A DNA stretch of 64,000 nt. Source: Actinacidiphila guanduensis. Lineage in GTDB: Bacteria > Actinomycetota > Actinomycetes > Streptomycetales > Streptomycetaceae. The position numbers were made by a program, and so were the translations under genes. Positions 25,729-30,406 of this stretch are shown here, one piece after another. Numbering within the stretch: the stretch's first letter is position 1; the number at the start of each line of letters is the position of its first letter. The stretch spans positions 1 to 64,000 of the forward strand of contig NZ_FNIE01000019.1 of the NCBI RefSeq assembly GCF_900103985.1. Reading direction: 5' to 3'. Under the pieces are notes generated by a model. That model ran no database searches. It was not told the DNA's origin and worked only from the letters and a program-made list of their open reading frames with translations.

Positions 25729-28700
25729 TCACCGCAGGAGGCTCAAGTCCACGGCGTTTGCCAGGGCTTGCATGCCGGATTCGTTCGGGTGGAGGTGGTC
25801 GCCCGAGTCGAAGGCCGGGTTGAGGGTGGTGGGGTCCGTGGGGGACGCGGCCGCCGCGGCGAAGTCGACCACTCCGTCGAAGGCGCCGCTGGTGCGGATC
25901 CAGGTGTTGACCGACTCGCGCATCGCCTCGGCCGCTTCGGAGTAGTAGACGTTGCCCTTGTCGGGGAGGAGGGTGGCGCCGATGACGCGGACGCCCGCCG
26001 CGTGGGCCTGGGCGATCAGGGTGCGGTAGCCGTCGGTCAGGTCCTGGACGGTGAGCGGGGCGCCGCCGGGGCCCGCGTTGTTGCCGATGTCGTTGATGCC
26101 CTCCAGCAGGATGACGTCCTTCACGCCCGGCTGGGCGAGGGCGTCGTGCGCGAAACGCTTGGTCGCGCTCACCCCCTGCCAGATGTTCGGCACGTCGGTG
26201 AGCACCCGGTTGCCGCCGATGCCCGCGTCCACCACGGCCTTCGGATTGCCGGCGGCGGCGAGCCGGCGGGCCAGGTCGTCGGGCCAGCGGTGGTACGCCC
26301 CGGTGGGGGTGTTGTAGCCGTCGGTGATGGAGTCGCCGAAGGCCACAACGGTGCCGCGCGCGGTGGAGGGCACGACGTCCAGCCCCGACAGGTAGTACCA
26401 GGAGGTGGTCGAGGCAACGTAGTTGCCGTCACCGGTGTCGGCGGTGTGGTCGCCGGGCGCCGACAGGTACGTGGTGTCGAAGGCGTCGGAGTGCCAGGTC
26501 GCCGAGCTGGTGGCCTGCGGCAGGTAGAGGCTCACCAGCAGGTTCTGCTCGGCGGCGACCGTCAGCGGGATCGGGTCGCTGACCAGCTCGCCACCGGCCG
26601 GGATCGTCACCGCCGCCTTGTGGCCGAAGGTGACCTGGTGCTCTGTGCCGGGCCGTGCGGTCGCCTGGGTGGCCTGGAGGGCGATGCGGACCTCGCCGAC
26701 GGCGAGCGGCGTGGTGGAGCGCAGGTTGGACAGGTGGATGCGCAGCGAGCTGCCGCCGACGCTCGGGTGGACGACCATCCGCAGCGTACGGTCGTCGAAG
26801 TTCGGCCCGCCGATCGTCATGCTCGGCGACCACGCCGAGACGCGCGAGGCCGCGCCCGCCACCGTCCGGGCGCCGGCCGCTCCCCGCGAACTGCCCGCCT
26901 GCTCGTACCCGACCGCCTGTCGCGAAGCGTTCACCTGCCCGGGACCGGCCGCCTGTCGGAACGCCCCCGGCTCCTCGTACCCGGCCATCCGCTCGGAACC
27001 GCTCGTCTGCACGGACCCGCCCGGCTCTTCGTACCCTGCCACCTGACTCGAACCCGAGCCCGCCACCGTGAAGCCGTCCACCAGCAGGTACGTGCCGCCG
27101 CGCTTGGTGACCGTCAGCGTGTGGGGGCCGGGCGGCAGGCCGGTGACGGAGTAGAGCGTCTGGCGCGTGTGCCGCTCGGGCGTGGCCGCGTCCACCGTCC
27201 CCTTGTCCGTGCCGTCGACAGTGACGTCGACCGGGCCCTCGTCCCCGTTGGTCTCGGTGACGAAGGACGCGCCCGTGCCGGTGAAGGAGAACGTCGCCGA
27301 GGCGCCGTCGGACTGCGTGTAGTGCACGCCGTCGTCGAGGTCGCCGAGGCCGCGCGAGCCACTGAAGGACCAGGAGCCGCGGTAGGCGACCCGCAGGTCG
27401 TCGTCATCGGCGACCGCGCCGGGTGCCCGGTCCGGGCCTGCCGCCGCGATGACCGCCTGCGCGGCCGGCGGCCAGTTCCCGTCCGTGACGACGGTCGCCT
27501 GCTCGACGTCCACGTCGGTGCCGTTGTTGCTGTACGCGGCGGTGTCGCTGAAGTTGTCGTGGATGCGGTCGTCGTGGATGGTGGGCGTCCACAGGCTGAG
27601 CCACTGCGAACCCCCGCCGAAGCGGATGACGTTGTCGTGGGTGTCCCACTGCGAGCTGCCCTCGTCGTGGTAGATCATGTTGCACCCGTCGATGCACTCG
27701 GAGAGCACGTTGCCGGCGAACTCCGAGGGCGCGGACTGCCCGCCGAGGGTGTAGACGGGCCCGCCGTCGAAGAGCGCGCCCATGACGCTGTGCACGTGGT
27801 TGCCGATGATCCTGTTGCCGCCGCCGTACGTGGTGCCGTGCCGGCACGGGTCGGGCAGTCCTTGCTTGGCCTGCAGCGTGCAACTCGACGCCCAACCCCA
27901 GCCCCAGCCGAGGGAGATACCGGAGTACGGGGTGTAGCCGACGTCGTTGTGGGACAGCAGCGTGCCGCGCGCGTGGCCCACCCAGATGCCGACGGCGTCG
28001 GAGTACTCCTGGCCGGGGAACTGCACGACGCTGTCGGAGACGGTGTCGCCGCTGGTCATCAGCGCGGGGTCGGTCTGGTAGTAGTCGTCCACCTCGCCGA
28101 TGGCGACGCCGACGCCGGAGGTGTCGGTCACGGTGGAGGCGTCGACCGCCGAGTCCTGCGTCTGGTCGGCGAGTGCGATACCGCTGGTGCCGGTGTCGCG
28201 GACGGTGTCCTGGGAGAAGTCGACCCGCAGGCCCCGGTGCACCTGGACGGCGGCCGGGATCTTGACGGGGGTGCGGGTGGTCGGGTCCCACAGCACGCCG
28301 GCCTGGTTGTCGACGTAGCCGGCGGCCGTCGGCGTGTTCCAGGCGGTGTAGGCGAAGGTCAGGCCCTGGACGGAGATGTCGTGCACGGGCGCGATGGCGT
28401 CGGGGATCACCGTGAAGCCGTCCACGAGCAGGAACGAGCCGCCGGTCTTGACCAGTTTGAGGGTGTGCGGGCCCTTGGCCAGGCCGGTGACGGAGGCCAG
28501 CACCTGCTGGGCGAGCCGTTCGGGGCCGCTGCCGGAGACGGTCGCGCGCTTGGTGCCGTCGATGTAGACGTCGGCGGTGCCCTCGTCGCTGTTGGTCTCC
28601 GACAGGACCTGGATACCGGTGCCGTCGAAGGCGTAGCTCACCGAGTCGCCGTCGGTGGAGGTGTAGTGGACGTCGTCGCCGAGGTCGCCGAGGTGCCGCC

Positions 28701-29697
28701 CGCCGGAGGTGCTCCAACTGCCGCTGTACGTCGCCCGCCAGTCGGAGTCGTTCAGCGGCGCGAGGTGGCCGGGGGTGCCGGAGGCGTCGAACAGCTCGGT
28801 GGTGAGCGGGAGTTCGACGTCGGCGGTGGCCAGGTCCTCACCGGGGCGCGGCACGTAGTAGAGGTGGCCGGCGTCCTGGTCGAGGTAGAACTGGCCGGGA
28901 GTGCCGAGCAGTTGGTAGGCGTTCTCCAGCCAGCTGATGCCGTCCAGGGTGGGCAGGCCGGCGCCGTTCAAGGGGAAGCCGGGGTTCGGCACCGAGGTGT
29001 GGTTGTTGGTCCAGCAGCCCGGGTCCACGGTGAGGTCCGAACCGCCGGACGCGGAGCGGGAGATGCCGGCCAGCGGGCAGCGCATCTGCTTCCAGCCGTT
29101 GTCCTGCACGACCTCGACGCGGGCCGGGTCGGTCCAACTCGCGTACGACGGGTCGCCGGTGGTGAAACCGGTCGACGTGACGGAGAAGCCGCCGGGGTTG
29201 CGCGGGCCGCGATCGCGCTCGGCGCGGACCCCGTTGACGAACAGGACGCGTCCGGTGGTGCCGGGGGGCACGTCCGCGCGGTAGATGTGCTTGGCGGCGT
29301 CCACCTCGGTGAAGCCGGTGACGCGGGTGGCGCCGCTCAGGACGGGCTGCTGGCCCGGCGCTGCGCGGTAGACCACCGGGTGGCCCGGCCGCCCGGAGTC
29401 CTGCGGGCCGAGTTTCAGCGGCGCCGTCAACCGGTAGGTGCCGCCCGCGAGTTCGACGACGACGTCGCCTGCGGCGTGCGGGACCAGGGCGCGGGCCCGG
29501 TCGCGGGCGGCCGTCAGCGAGCAGGGGTCCTGCGGGCCGCACCGATCGCCGTGCCCGGCGGGGGCGACGTGCAGGACGTCGGCGGTGGCGGCGCTCGCCG
29601 CGCTCGCGGTCGGGGACCCGGCGAGGCCGAGGACCGCGAGGGCTGCCGTGACAGCGACGGCGGCGGCACTGCGGCAGGCGGCAAGGGCGCTGCGCAT
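25729..29697 (-). CDS. Secreted fusion: GH141-like beta-helix with two inserted jelly-roll domains, plus SGNH esterase
   Basis: A 1322-residue secreted protein. Signal peptide 1-34. Residues 40-310 and 433-760 form a right-handed beta-helix of the GH141 type (VVELAGGTYRLTAPLKLG, WLENAYQLLGTPGQFYLDQD, HLYYVPRPGEDLATADVEL). Two copies of a roughly 115-residue jelly-roll-like module (317-432 and 765-880; YSGSWSTSGGRHLGDL versus YRGSWSFSGSRGLGDL, both ending LLVDGFTV) interrupt and follow it. Residues 881-950 are a linker with three AGYEEPG-like repeats. Residues 950-1110 match the beta domain that precedes many streptomycete SGNH hydrolases, and 1115-1322 the esterase: GDSITDG (S1123), GGNR, GIND, and D1300-x2-H1303. 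GH141 includes fucosidases of rhamnogalacturonan II and xylanases; SGNH domains often deacetylate glycans. ATG 29697 follows GGAG. It stands alone. Confidence 0.85.
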   Translation of the reverse strand: MRSALAACRSAAAVAVTAALAVLGLAGSPTASAASAATADVLHVAPAGHGDRCGPQDPCSLTAARDRARALVPHAAGDVVVELAGGTYRLTAPLKLGPQDSGRPGHPVVYRAAPGQQPVLSGATRVTGFTEVDAAKHIYRADVPPGTTGRVLFVNGVRAERDRGPRNPGGFSVTSTGFTTGDPSYASWTDPARVEVVQDNGWKQMRCPLAGISRSASGGSDLTVDPGCWTNNHTSVPNPGFPLNGAGLPTLDGISWLENAYQLLGTPGQFYLDQDAGHLYYVPRPGEDLATADVELPLTTELFDASGTPGHLAPLNDSDWRATYSGSWSTSGGRHLGDLGDDVHYTSTDGDSVSYAFDGTGIQVLSETNSDEGTADVYIDGTKRATVSGSGPERLAQQVLASVTGLAKGPHTLKLVKTGGSFLLVDGFTVIPDAIAPVHDISVQGLTFAYTAWNTPTAAGYVDNQAGVLWDPTTRTPVKIPAAVQVHRGLRVDFSQDTVRDTGTSGIALADQTQDSAVDASTVTDTSGVGVAIGEVDDYYQTDPALMTSGDTVSDSVVQFPGQEYSDAVGIWVGHARGTLLSHNDVGYTPYSGISLGWGWGWASSCTLQAKQGLPDPCRHGTTYGGGNRIIGNHVHSVMGALFDGGPVYTLGGQSAPSEFAGNVLSECIDGCNMIYHDEGSSQWDTHDNVIRFGGGSQWLSLWTPTIHDDRIHDNFSDTAAYSNNGTDVDVEQATVVTDGNWPPAAQAVIAAAGPDRAPGAVADDDDLRVAYRGSWSFSGSRGLGDLDDGVHYTQSDGASATFSFTGTGASFVTETNGDEGPVDVTVDGTDKGTVDAATPERHTRQTLYSVTGLPPGPHTLTVTKRGGTYLLVDGFTVAGSGSSQVAGYEEPGGSVQTSGSERMAGYEEPGAFRQAAGPGQVNASRQAVGYEQAGSSRGAAGARTVAGAASRVSAWSPSMTIGGPNFDDRTLRMVVHPSVGGSSLRIHLSNLRSTTPLAVGEVRIALQATQATARPGTEHQVTFGHKAAVTIPAGGELVSDPIPLTVAAEQNLLVSLYLPQATSSATWHSDAFDTTYLSAPGDHTADTGDGNYVASTTSWYYLSGLDVVPSTARGTVVAFGDSITDGYNTPTGAYHRWPDDLARRLAAAGNPKAVVDAGIGGNRVLTDVPNIWQGVSATKRFAHDALAQPGVKDVILLEGINDIGNNAGPGGAPLTVQDLTDGYRTLIAQAHAAGVRVIGATLLPDKGNVYYSEAAEAMRESVNTWIRTSGAFDGVVDFAAAAASPTDPTTLNPAFDSGDHLHPNESGMQALANAVDLSLLR

Positions 29698-30107
29698 CGT
29701 GTGAACTCCATCGACGGTGGCGGAGGGTGCAGACGTCCCATGAATGTAGGGGAGTTGACCTTCGCTGCCTAGAGATGAGCACGATGTTTCACCGGGAGAT
29801 CGGACCTCTACGGCGAGGTTGCCGCCGGAGTTGCCGCCGGACCGGGCCAGGGGCCGCGGCCGCGCGGATGTCGGCGGCGCGCGGCCGCCGCTCGCGGCGG
29901 GTACGGCGGGTACGGCGGGTACGGTTTACGGGCGCCGGTCACCGGCAGGCCGCGCCTCGCCGGACCTGTCGGCTGCCGGCGGGACCGCCCAGTCCAAAGG
30001 GGCCGGAAACCCCTGTCGAATCACGTCAGTTCGGCGTCAACGGCGTGTCAGCGGGGCGTGGCACAGTATTTCTCGTGAGCGGGACGGGAAACCGGACCGG
30101 AACACAG
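29698..30107. other. Intergenic region upstream of the tRNA-like array
   Basis: No gene is visible. It holds the leader of the minus-strand fusion gene (with TACATT near 29741 as a possible -10 on the minus strand), a 9-bp tandem repeat GCGGGTACG x3 near 29897-29923, and the presumed promoter region of the tRNA-like array, with CACAGTATTT (30063-30070) as the only AT-rich patch close to it. Confidence 0.5.
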
Positions 30108-30194
30108 GGAGAGGTGCCCGGAGCGGCTTATCGGGGACCACCACACGGCGGTCGGGCCTCACAGCCCGCGCAGGTTCGAATCCTGCCCTCTCCG
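30108..30194 (+). tRNA. tRNA-Ser-like gene, copy 1, non-canonical anticodon loop
   Basis: An 87-nt class II tRNA shape. Acceptor GGAGAGG/CCTCTCC is 7 bp, with discriminator G; D-stem CCCG/CGGG with the invariant GG in its loop; variable arm GGGC-CTCACA-GCCC; T-arm GCAGG-TTCGAAT-CCTGC is perfect. Long variable arm plus G73 fit serine identity. The anticodon arm is abnormal: stem ACCAC/GCGGT has an A-C mismatch and encloses only six bases, CACACG, instead of seven, and lacks the universal U33. It therefore should not decode normally. SerRS does not read the anticodon in known bacterial systems, so charging remains possible. CCA is not encoded directly after the discriminator. Confidence 0.7.
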
Positions 30195-30213
30195 CGCACC
30201 ACAACAAAACCCA

Positions 30214-30300
30214 GGAGAGGTGCCCGGAGCGGCTTATCGGGGACCACCACACGGCGGTCGGGCCTCACAGCCCGCGCAGGTTCGAATCCTGCCCTCTCCG
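30214..30300 (+). tRNA. tRNA-Ser-like gene, copy 2
   Basis: Identical to copy 1 over all 87 nt, including the six-base loop CACACG, and separated from it by a 19-nt spacer. The period of the array is 106 bp. Perfect identity of both arms and loop argues for recent duplication or active homogenisation, not random decay. Confidence 0.7.
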
Positions 30301-30319
30301 CGCACCACAACAAAACCCA

Positions 30320-30406
30320 GGAGAGGTGCCCGGAGCGGCTCATCGGGGACCACCACACGGCGGTCGGGCCTCACAGCCCGCGCAGGTTCGAATCCTGCCC
30401 TCTCCG
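30320..30406 (+). tRNA. tRNA-Ser-like gene, copy 3
   Basis: Identical to copies 1 and 2 except for T to C at 30341 in the D-loop. The preceding 19-nt spacer repeats that between copies 1 and 2 (CGCACCACAACAAAACCCA); the array ends here and is followed by the hairpin at 30428-30440. The non-canonical anticodon loop is retained in all three. Confidence 0.7.

Follow-up and report, generated by a model that had tools for sequence, protein, structure and literature searches.

The window, a stretch of 64,000 nucleotides from Actinacidiphila guanduensis, carries on its plus strand three serine-type tRNA-like units of 87 nt arranged in tandem, with a period of 106 and starts at positions 30108, 30214 and 30320. 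Unit 2 (30214..30300) is identical in sequence to unit 1 (30108..30194), and unit 3 (30320..30406) departs from unit 1 by a single T-to-C change in the D loop. Sequence and RNA folding thus confirm this arrangement, which had been given in a preliminary description of the locus. RNA folding yields a 7-bp acceptor stem, a 4-bp D stem, a 5-bp T stem and a variable stem, all intact; G73 is present and CCA is not encoded. At the site of the anticodon arm, however, the RNA forms a hairpin in which GACC and GGUC pair, followed inward by a 1×1 A·C mismatch, a CC/GG stem and a 4-nt loop, ACAC. The A–C mismatch was part of the preliminary description and stands, but the six-base loop CACACG reported there corresponds to the same hairpin with its inner C–G pair left open. 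When a single window sequence is folded and compared with dinucleotide shuffles, the excess is modest (z of −2.25 and −2.41), and the main structural evidence is the conservation and covariation seen in relatives rather than single-sequence folding. A simple consensus scan of the plus strand found no intrinsic terminator 3′ of the array, and therefore the earlier argument that a terminator speaks against decay is unsupported. The array is bordered by a minus-strand gene (25729-29697) for a very large, secreted-looking protein of 1322 aa, the C-terminal part of which resembles, by eye, a GDSL-type esterase.

All three units are labelled “tRNA-Arg (acg)” by ARAGORN, and an Rfam scan of the window at the gathering threshold gives no match. 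When sub-threshold matches are ranked by E-value, the best is to tRNA-Sec (RF01852) at ∼26 bits against a cut-off of 47, with a few chance matches besides. This score, the 4-bp D stem and the lack of a UCA anticodon rule out a tRNA-Sec identity; the units share a long variable arm with tRNA-Sec, but differ from it in the latter two features and in their 7+5 acceptor/T domain. An identity as tRNA-Arg (ACG) was also rejected, as there is no ACG in a normal loop, the body is not class I, and the true tRNA-Arg ACG is a separate class I gene. The genome yields 61 RF00005 matches over the Rfam cut-off, and the three window units, which fall below that gathering score, are not among them. Nor do they have the 7-nt anticodon loop with U33 that characterizes a decoding tRNA, the loop being ACAC. 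The tRNA loci examined in this genome include normal tRNA-Ser genes for CGA, GCT, GGA and TGA as well as tRNA-Arg ACG, and the reading of serine or CGU codons should therefore not depend on the units. G73, a long variable arm and GG..CC acceptor ends are identity determinants of tRNA-Ser, and all of these are found in the units, as judged from the family alignment, from pair counts and from the four tRNA-Ser of the same genome. Like bacterial class II tRNA-Ser, the units also have a GGTTC-RAA T loop, and their GGAG acceptor start is that of three of the four tRNA-Ser. They differ from tRNA-Ser in having no anticodon loop, in their 4-bp D stem and in scoring below the Rfam cut-off.

A fourth copy, 97% identical to the window units, is located on another contig of the same genome (C11), ∼180 nt from the gene for a PF09924 protein, a VlmA-type transferase. 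PF09924 is described as the family of VlmA (PMC9379638), and this homologue is a candidate for the seryl-tRNA-using enzyme that the preliminary description proposed to seek in the genome. Surrounding the copy (C11, ∼190.7-227.8 kb) are genes for a SARP, a SerRS, an amino-acid permease, and VlmB-, VlmR-, VlmO- and VlmH-like proteins. The presence of VlmA together with VlmH, VlmO, VlmB and VlmR identifies an azoxy (valanimycin-type) cluster, in which the VlmH-, VlmO-, VlmB-, VlmR- and SerRS-like genes were found by tblastn with proteins of relatives, and the names VlmB, VlmO and VlmH rest on gene order and on descriptions in the literature rather than on comparison with reference sequences. The SerRS matches that of another such cluster at 69%. 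The loop of the cluster copy is GCAA, whereas that of the window copies is ACAC, a change that could be early drift. By eye, the cluster (∼190747-227776) has an EF-Tu (tuf-like) gene on one side and the S10 ribosomal operon on the other, which is an unusual place for a biosynthetic cluster.

Upstream of the window array is a SARP-type box (30025..30050, plus strand) with three GTCA repeats (30025, 30036 and 30047) at an exact 11-bp spacing, and the same arrangement precedes the C11 copy. A sigma-70 consensus scan found no promoter; CAGTAT (30064..30069, plus strand) is a possible −10 element, as suggested by its position and its conservation with the C11 copy. All 38 bases of the probable leader (30070..30107, plus strand) are identical to those before the azoxy-cluster copy. 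Over the whole duplicated stretch (30015..30200, plus strand), which runs from the promoter through leader and unit into 6 nt of 3′ flanking DNA, 171 of 186 positions match the C11 copy, and the similarity ends six bases past the unit. Because of this match, the identical leader and the abrupt end, it is probable that a single module comprising promoter, leader and unit was duplicated. The module also matches twelve Streptomyces plasmid records, and in ten the match covers 66% or more of the query. SARP sites are described as repeated heptamers with a classical spacing of 11 bp, and VlmI sites made up of three repeats have been reported upstream of vlmJ and vlmA-vlmH (PMC10972967). Judged by its sequence, the array of the window is an orphan copy that shares its putative 11-bp SARP-type repeat promoter with the cluster copy.

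A DNA search of 100 related genomes produced matches in 11, namely the genome under study (the fourth copy), five others with relatives, among them tandem arrays of five and of two units and, in G044, a partial match that turned out on later analysis to be a full unit, and five with short partial matches only. In the five other genomes with relatives, the homologues are accompanied by genes for at least one of VlmA (PF09924), VlmJ (PF00781/PF19279), VlmK (PF03972) and SerRS; vlmA is 15-24 kb away in two of these genomes and on another contig in one. A covariance model, R1, was built from eight sequences and scores family members at 71-108 bits, including 96.2 bits for unit 1 and 95.7 bits for unit 3 of the window. 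Ordinary tRNA-Ser reach at most 44.2 bits with R1 in a first test, and one Salinispora tRNA-Ser scores 59.4.

The family alignment comprises 115 hits in 100 distinct rows, which include one true tRNA-Ser and two N-masked rows kept for the pairing test. Across these rows there is hardly any variation in the acceptor, D and T stems, and the long variable arm and G73 recur. The sequence of the anticodon arm varies but its pairing is kept: 97.1% of cells are paired in this alignment, which is fitted to the structure of the model and hence favors that structure, and 19 of 28 pairs show changes at both positions. None of 500 shuffles gives pairing as high, and shifting the partner columns by one lowers it to 57-62%. 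Neither the relaxed constraint nor the broken stems of pseudogenes are evident. In the preliminary description, random loop sequences at orthologous loci were taken as a sign of pseudogenes. Loop sequences do vary among relatives, but compensating changes preserve the stems and the tRNA body is near-invariant, and the units therefore do not look like products of decay.

For the arm itself, 97 of the 100 distinct rows were used (excluding a true tRNA-Ser CGA, L103, and two units interrupted by masked Ns) and 96 were parsed, the remaining one being a Salinispora unit (L076). The loop is 3-5 nt long in 92 of the 96, with 4 nt in 65, 5 in 18 and 3 in 9; there are two loops of 8 nt, one of 6 and one of 7, the last probably a misfold. 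GCAA occurs 12 times, AGCA 10 times and UUCG 8 times. A GNRA tetraloop was considered as a family hallmark and dropped, since GCAA and GAAA together make up 15 of 96 loops, UUCG another 8, and many loops are neither. ARAGORN labels the relatives Leu, Cys, Val, Glu, Ile, Asn, Ala, Gly, Thr, Arg, SeC, Ser or “???”, with Ser assigned to a single unit each in L053 and L185. The feature common to the whole family is a closed hairpin, without any common anticodon. False units of ∼190 nt arise in two public records (L039 2704-2894 and L052 9563-9749), where runs of masked Ns separate tandem units.

A scan of 84,980 species genomes with a VlmA-like protein, which detects close relatives only, recovered 59 vlmA loci in Streptomyces, Kitasatospora, Streptantibioticus, Salinispora, Actinomadura and Nocardia. 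The RNA is present at 50 of these, and in 46 of the 50 it is divergent to vlmA and 133-545 nt upstream of the vlmA match (the exceptions are L049, L050, L080 and L082). Seven of the nine loci without the RNA are in genomes that have copies elsewhere, from 1 to 15. At one of the nine (L057) the contig edge falls inside an apparent unit. No unit was found in the draft genome of S. graminilatus (L062), where part of a SerRS is present. At six of the nine (L048, L051, L061, L066, L077 and L083) a GTCA-repeat promoter remains upstream of vlmA while the tRNA body, by eye, is gone, and RNA copies are found elsewhere in these genomes. In S. griseofuscus, whose chromosome measures 8.72 Mb and has vlmA at 2.36 Mb, all 14 chromosomal copies lie no more than ∼0.75 Mb from an end, and one further copy is on another replicon (C2). 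These fifteen units are all outside the azoxy cluster, and two near one end appear to be mirrored at the other, probably in terminal repeats.

The repeat promoter accompanies most of the family. Among the 121 units, 93 are first of an array and have at least 150 nt of N-free upstream DNA, a set that includes some sites represented in two loci of one genome. GTCA repeats at 11-bp spacing precede 76 of these 93 and three repeats in a row precede 42, compared with 3.0% and 1.5%, respectively, of 20,000 random control windows from the same loci, which may contain the promoters themselves. The doublet is absent upstream of the other 17.

To relate the RNA to VlmA, we compared their presence in 297 genomes of one family, assigned as Streptomycetaceae from named members among them. 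VlmA (E up to 1e-30) is present in 52 and the RNA, counted with strict filters that can lose weak matches, in 36, all of which are within the 52; the RNA was found in none of the 245 VlmA-less genomes. Every RNA-bearing genome of this set thus has VlmA, and units sit inside vlmA clusters, which links the RNA genetically to a ribosome-independent aminoacyl-tRNA transferase. The association has a Fisher p of ∼3e-34, computed ignoring relatedness, and the co-occurrence is partly a matter of common ancestry and transfer of whole clusters. Sixteen VlmA-bearing genomes are without the RNA, and therefore VlmA homologues as such do not need it. Beside the vlmA genes of these 16, ARAGORN reported no odd tRNA, only one normal tRNA-Arg CCT and one repeat artefact, and R1 gave no convincing match (best 24.7 bits).

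The VlmA tree is a better guide than Fisher's test, which ignores relatedness. In this tree of 89 rows (midpoint-rooted for drawing, with some long branches, and without the VlmA of G041, G044 and G055, which falls outside the stretches analysed), a branch with support 98/92 sets apart 73 rows that include all 71 with the RNA near or elsewhere in the genome. Only L057 and L062 are on this side without the RNA, and the other 16 of the 18 RNA-less rows are on the opposite side. SerRS or VlmJ/K genes follow the same division, being found at 38 of 50 loci with the RNA near, at 6 of 7 with the RNA elsewhere and at 1 of 18 without it, the last being L062. Within the stretches examined (at most ∼8 kb on each side for the 16 RNA-less genomes and up to 10 kb for the others), neither SerRS nor VlmJ/K is seen at 12 of 50 RNA-near and 1 of 7 RNA-elsewhere loci. 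For the alanine-type azodyrecin cluster, a published description notes the lack of a synthetase gene and the use of tRNA from the cellular pool (PMC9379638). This difference, together with the co-occurrence of SerRS and VlmJ/K with the RNA, suggests that the RNA is a marker of serine-type azoxy clusters.

The observed structure, family, co-occurrence, common promoter and position in clusters lead us to conclude that the units are very probably dedicated, non-decoding seryl-tRNAs of the azoxy (valanimycin-type) pathway, serving VlmA. The preliminary description had proposed non-translational serine donors, for instance to a valanimycin-type transferase, and this idea gains support from the relatives that adjoin vlmA-type genes in azoxy clusters. 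As the enzymes of such clusters use serine-loaded tRNA, the units probably feed serine to the antibiotic pathway rather than to the ribosome. The SARP regulator of the cluster would switch on the tRNA genes together with vlmA and vlmJ, and the units would be transcribed, processed and given CCA. Recognition of tRNA by SerRS does not need the anticodon. Either the housekeeping SerRS or a VlmL-like cluster enzyme might thus charge the units via the acceptor stem, G73 and the long variable arm. The charged RNA would constitute a private serine pool, presumably unable to read codons because a closed hairpin replaces the anticodon loop, from which the VlmA-type transferase would move serine onto an alkylhydroxylamine, toward the azoxy group. 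The window array would be an orphan, triplicated promoter-tRNA module that serves the C11 cluster in trans and adds gene dose. In valanimycin biosynthesis, VlmA is described as converting isobutylhydroxylamine to an O-seryl ester with Ser-tRNA-Ser (PMC12945691), and a dedicated tRNA is therefore not strictly required in vitro.

Some features of these loci might instead be expected of a regulatory tRNA mimic, acting as a decoy or leader element that controls vlmJ, SerRS or vlmA without donating serine: several clusters place the units immediately before vlmJ, and most have them in divergent orientation to vlmA. However, promoter-tRNA modules also occur far from any vlmA, in tandem or as dispersed single copies, which makes a role in cis unlikely for them, and near-invariance of the acceptor, G73 and T arm is not required of a decoy. 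We therefore regard regulation as an improbable explanation. Seryl donation to some other enzyme, for example in cell wall or lipid synthesis, with only an indirect link to VlmA, is very improbable. Any aminoacyl-tRNA-dependent transferase could use such an RNA, and copy number is high in some genomes, but the lack of any unit in the 245 VlmA-less family genomes and the location of units inside azoxy clusters argue otherwise.

Two further explanations deserve hardly any credence. That the units decode or mistranslate, placing for example serine at arginine CGU codons, is suggested by the ARAGORN label tRNA-Arg (acg) and by the known occurrence in Streptomyces and Kitasatospora of dual-identity tRNAs that mistranslate (PMC11415595). 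Against this, the relatives share no anticodon and are labelled for many amino acids, 95 of 96 parsed sequences lack a 7-nt loop, and the genome has a normal tRNA-Arg ACG and four tRNA-Ser. Pseudogenes or decaying tRNA copies, such as debris of mobile elements, could account for the variable loop sequence and for dispersed copies at chromosome ends and on plasmids, yet not for a near-invariant body, compensated stems, a repeat promoter that is mostly kept and strict co-occurrence with VlmA. Returning to the dedicated seryl-tRNA, we consider it likely that the family constitutes a natural class of anticodon-less tRNAs, in which the decoding loop has become a hairpin, and which have been recruited to azoxy clusters, valanimycin-type ones among them, as SARP-promoter modules, supply VlmA with a private seryl pool and multiply with flux demand.

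Staphylococcal non-proteinogenic tRNA-Gly, which keep an anticodon, are the closest point of comparison for such an RNA. Dedicated non-translational tRNAs are already known from staphylococcal cell walls, where tRNA-Gly genes are, like the units, set aside for a ribosome-independent aminoacyl transferase (FemXAB; PMC9976931), and the GNAT/Fem fold group of these transferases is described as including VlmA (PMC9976931, PMC12945691). The staphylococcal tRNA-Gly escape EF-Tu through T-arm changes (PMC9976931), whereas in the window units inspection by eye revealed no obvious loss of EF-Tu elements in T stem and acceptor, and it is the anticodon loop that is missing. The units further differ in that their amino acid is presumably serine and their genes belong to an antibiotic cluster. 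Streptomyces and Kitasatospora also harbor tRNA-ProX, which are likewise extra, odd tRNAs of the same bacterial group, but these carry the anticodons AGC, AUU and AGU and mistranslate (PMC11415595). With the valanimycin pathway (VlmA, VlmL, VlmJ, VlmK, VlmI), RNA-bearing clusters have in common VlmA-, VlmH-, VlmO-, VlmR- and VlmB-like proteins, often SerRS or VlmJ plus VlmK, often a SARP, and SARP-type repeats before most RNA genes.

The azoxy literature speaks of SerRS and Ser-tRNA-Ser, or of the cellular tRNA pool for azodyrecin, and the portions available of five such papers mention no cluster tRNA gene (PMC9379638, PMC12945691, PMC11705231, PMC4052509, PMC6662830). In a search of open-licence literature, with few subscription journals and no preprints, we found no report of a dedicated tRNA in an antibiotic cluster or of one with its anticodon loop replaced. 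How Ser-tRNA is diverted from translation is raised as an open question in a review (PMC4052509), and a 2023 review describes the identity elements for such antibiotic enzymes as still unknown (PMC9976931). If the proposed role is correct, a cluster-encoded anticodon-less tRNA would be a concrete answer to the question of Ser-tRNA diversion, would explain why tRNA finders mislabel or miss these genes, would offer a sequence marker for probably serine-type azoxy clusters, and might perhaps provide a ready-made scaffold that is chargeable yet non-decoding.

Individual clusters show variations in gene content and order. One genome (G219), presumably that of Kitasatospora setae KM-6054, has two azoxy clusters. 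The first contains VlmA-, VlmH-, VlmO-, VlmR- and VlmB-like genes, SerRS, a SARP, VlmK and VlmJ; two tandem units immediately precede vlmJ in the same orientation, giving the order tRNA-tRNA-vlmJ-vlmK. The second has five tandem units. K. setae has been listed beside S. viridifaciens for VlmO (PMC11705231). A YcaO-domain protein (PF02624) is encoded near vlmA in the A. guanduensis cluster (L021 12909-15455). In another cluster (L023 13449-14759), the SerRS matches the tRNA-binding N-terminal domain of SerRS weakly, at 31 bits (versus 84 for the L025 SerRS), and this enzyme is possibly adapted to the odd tRNA.
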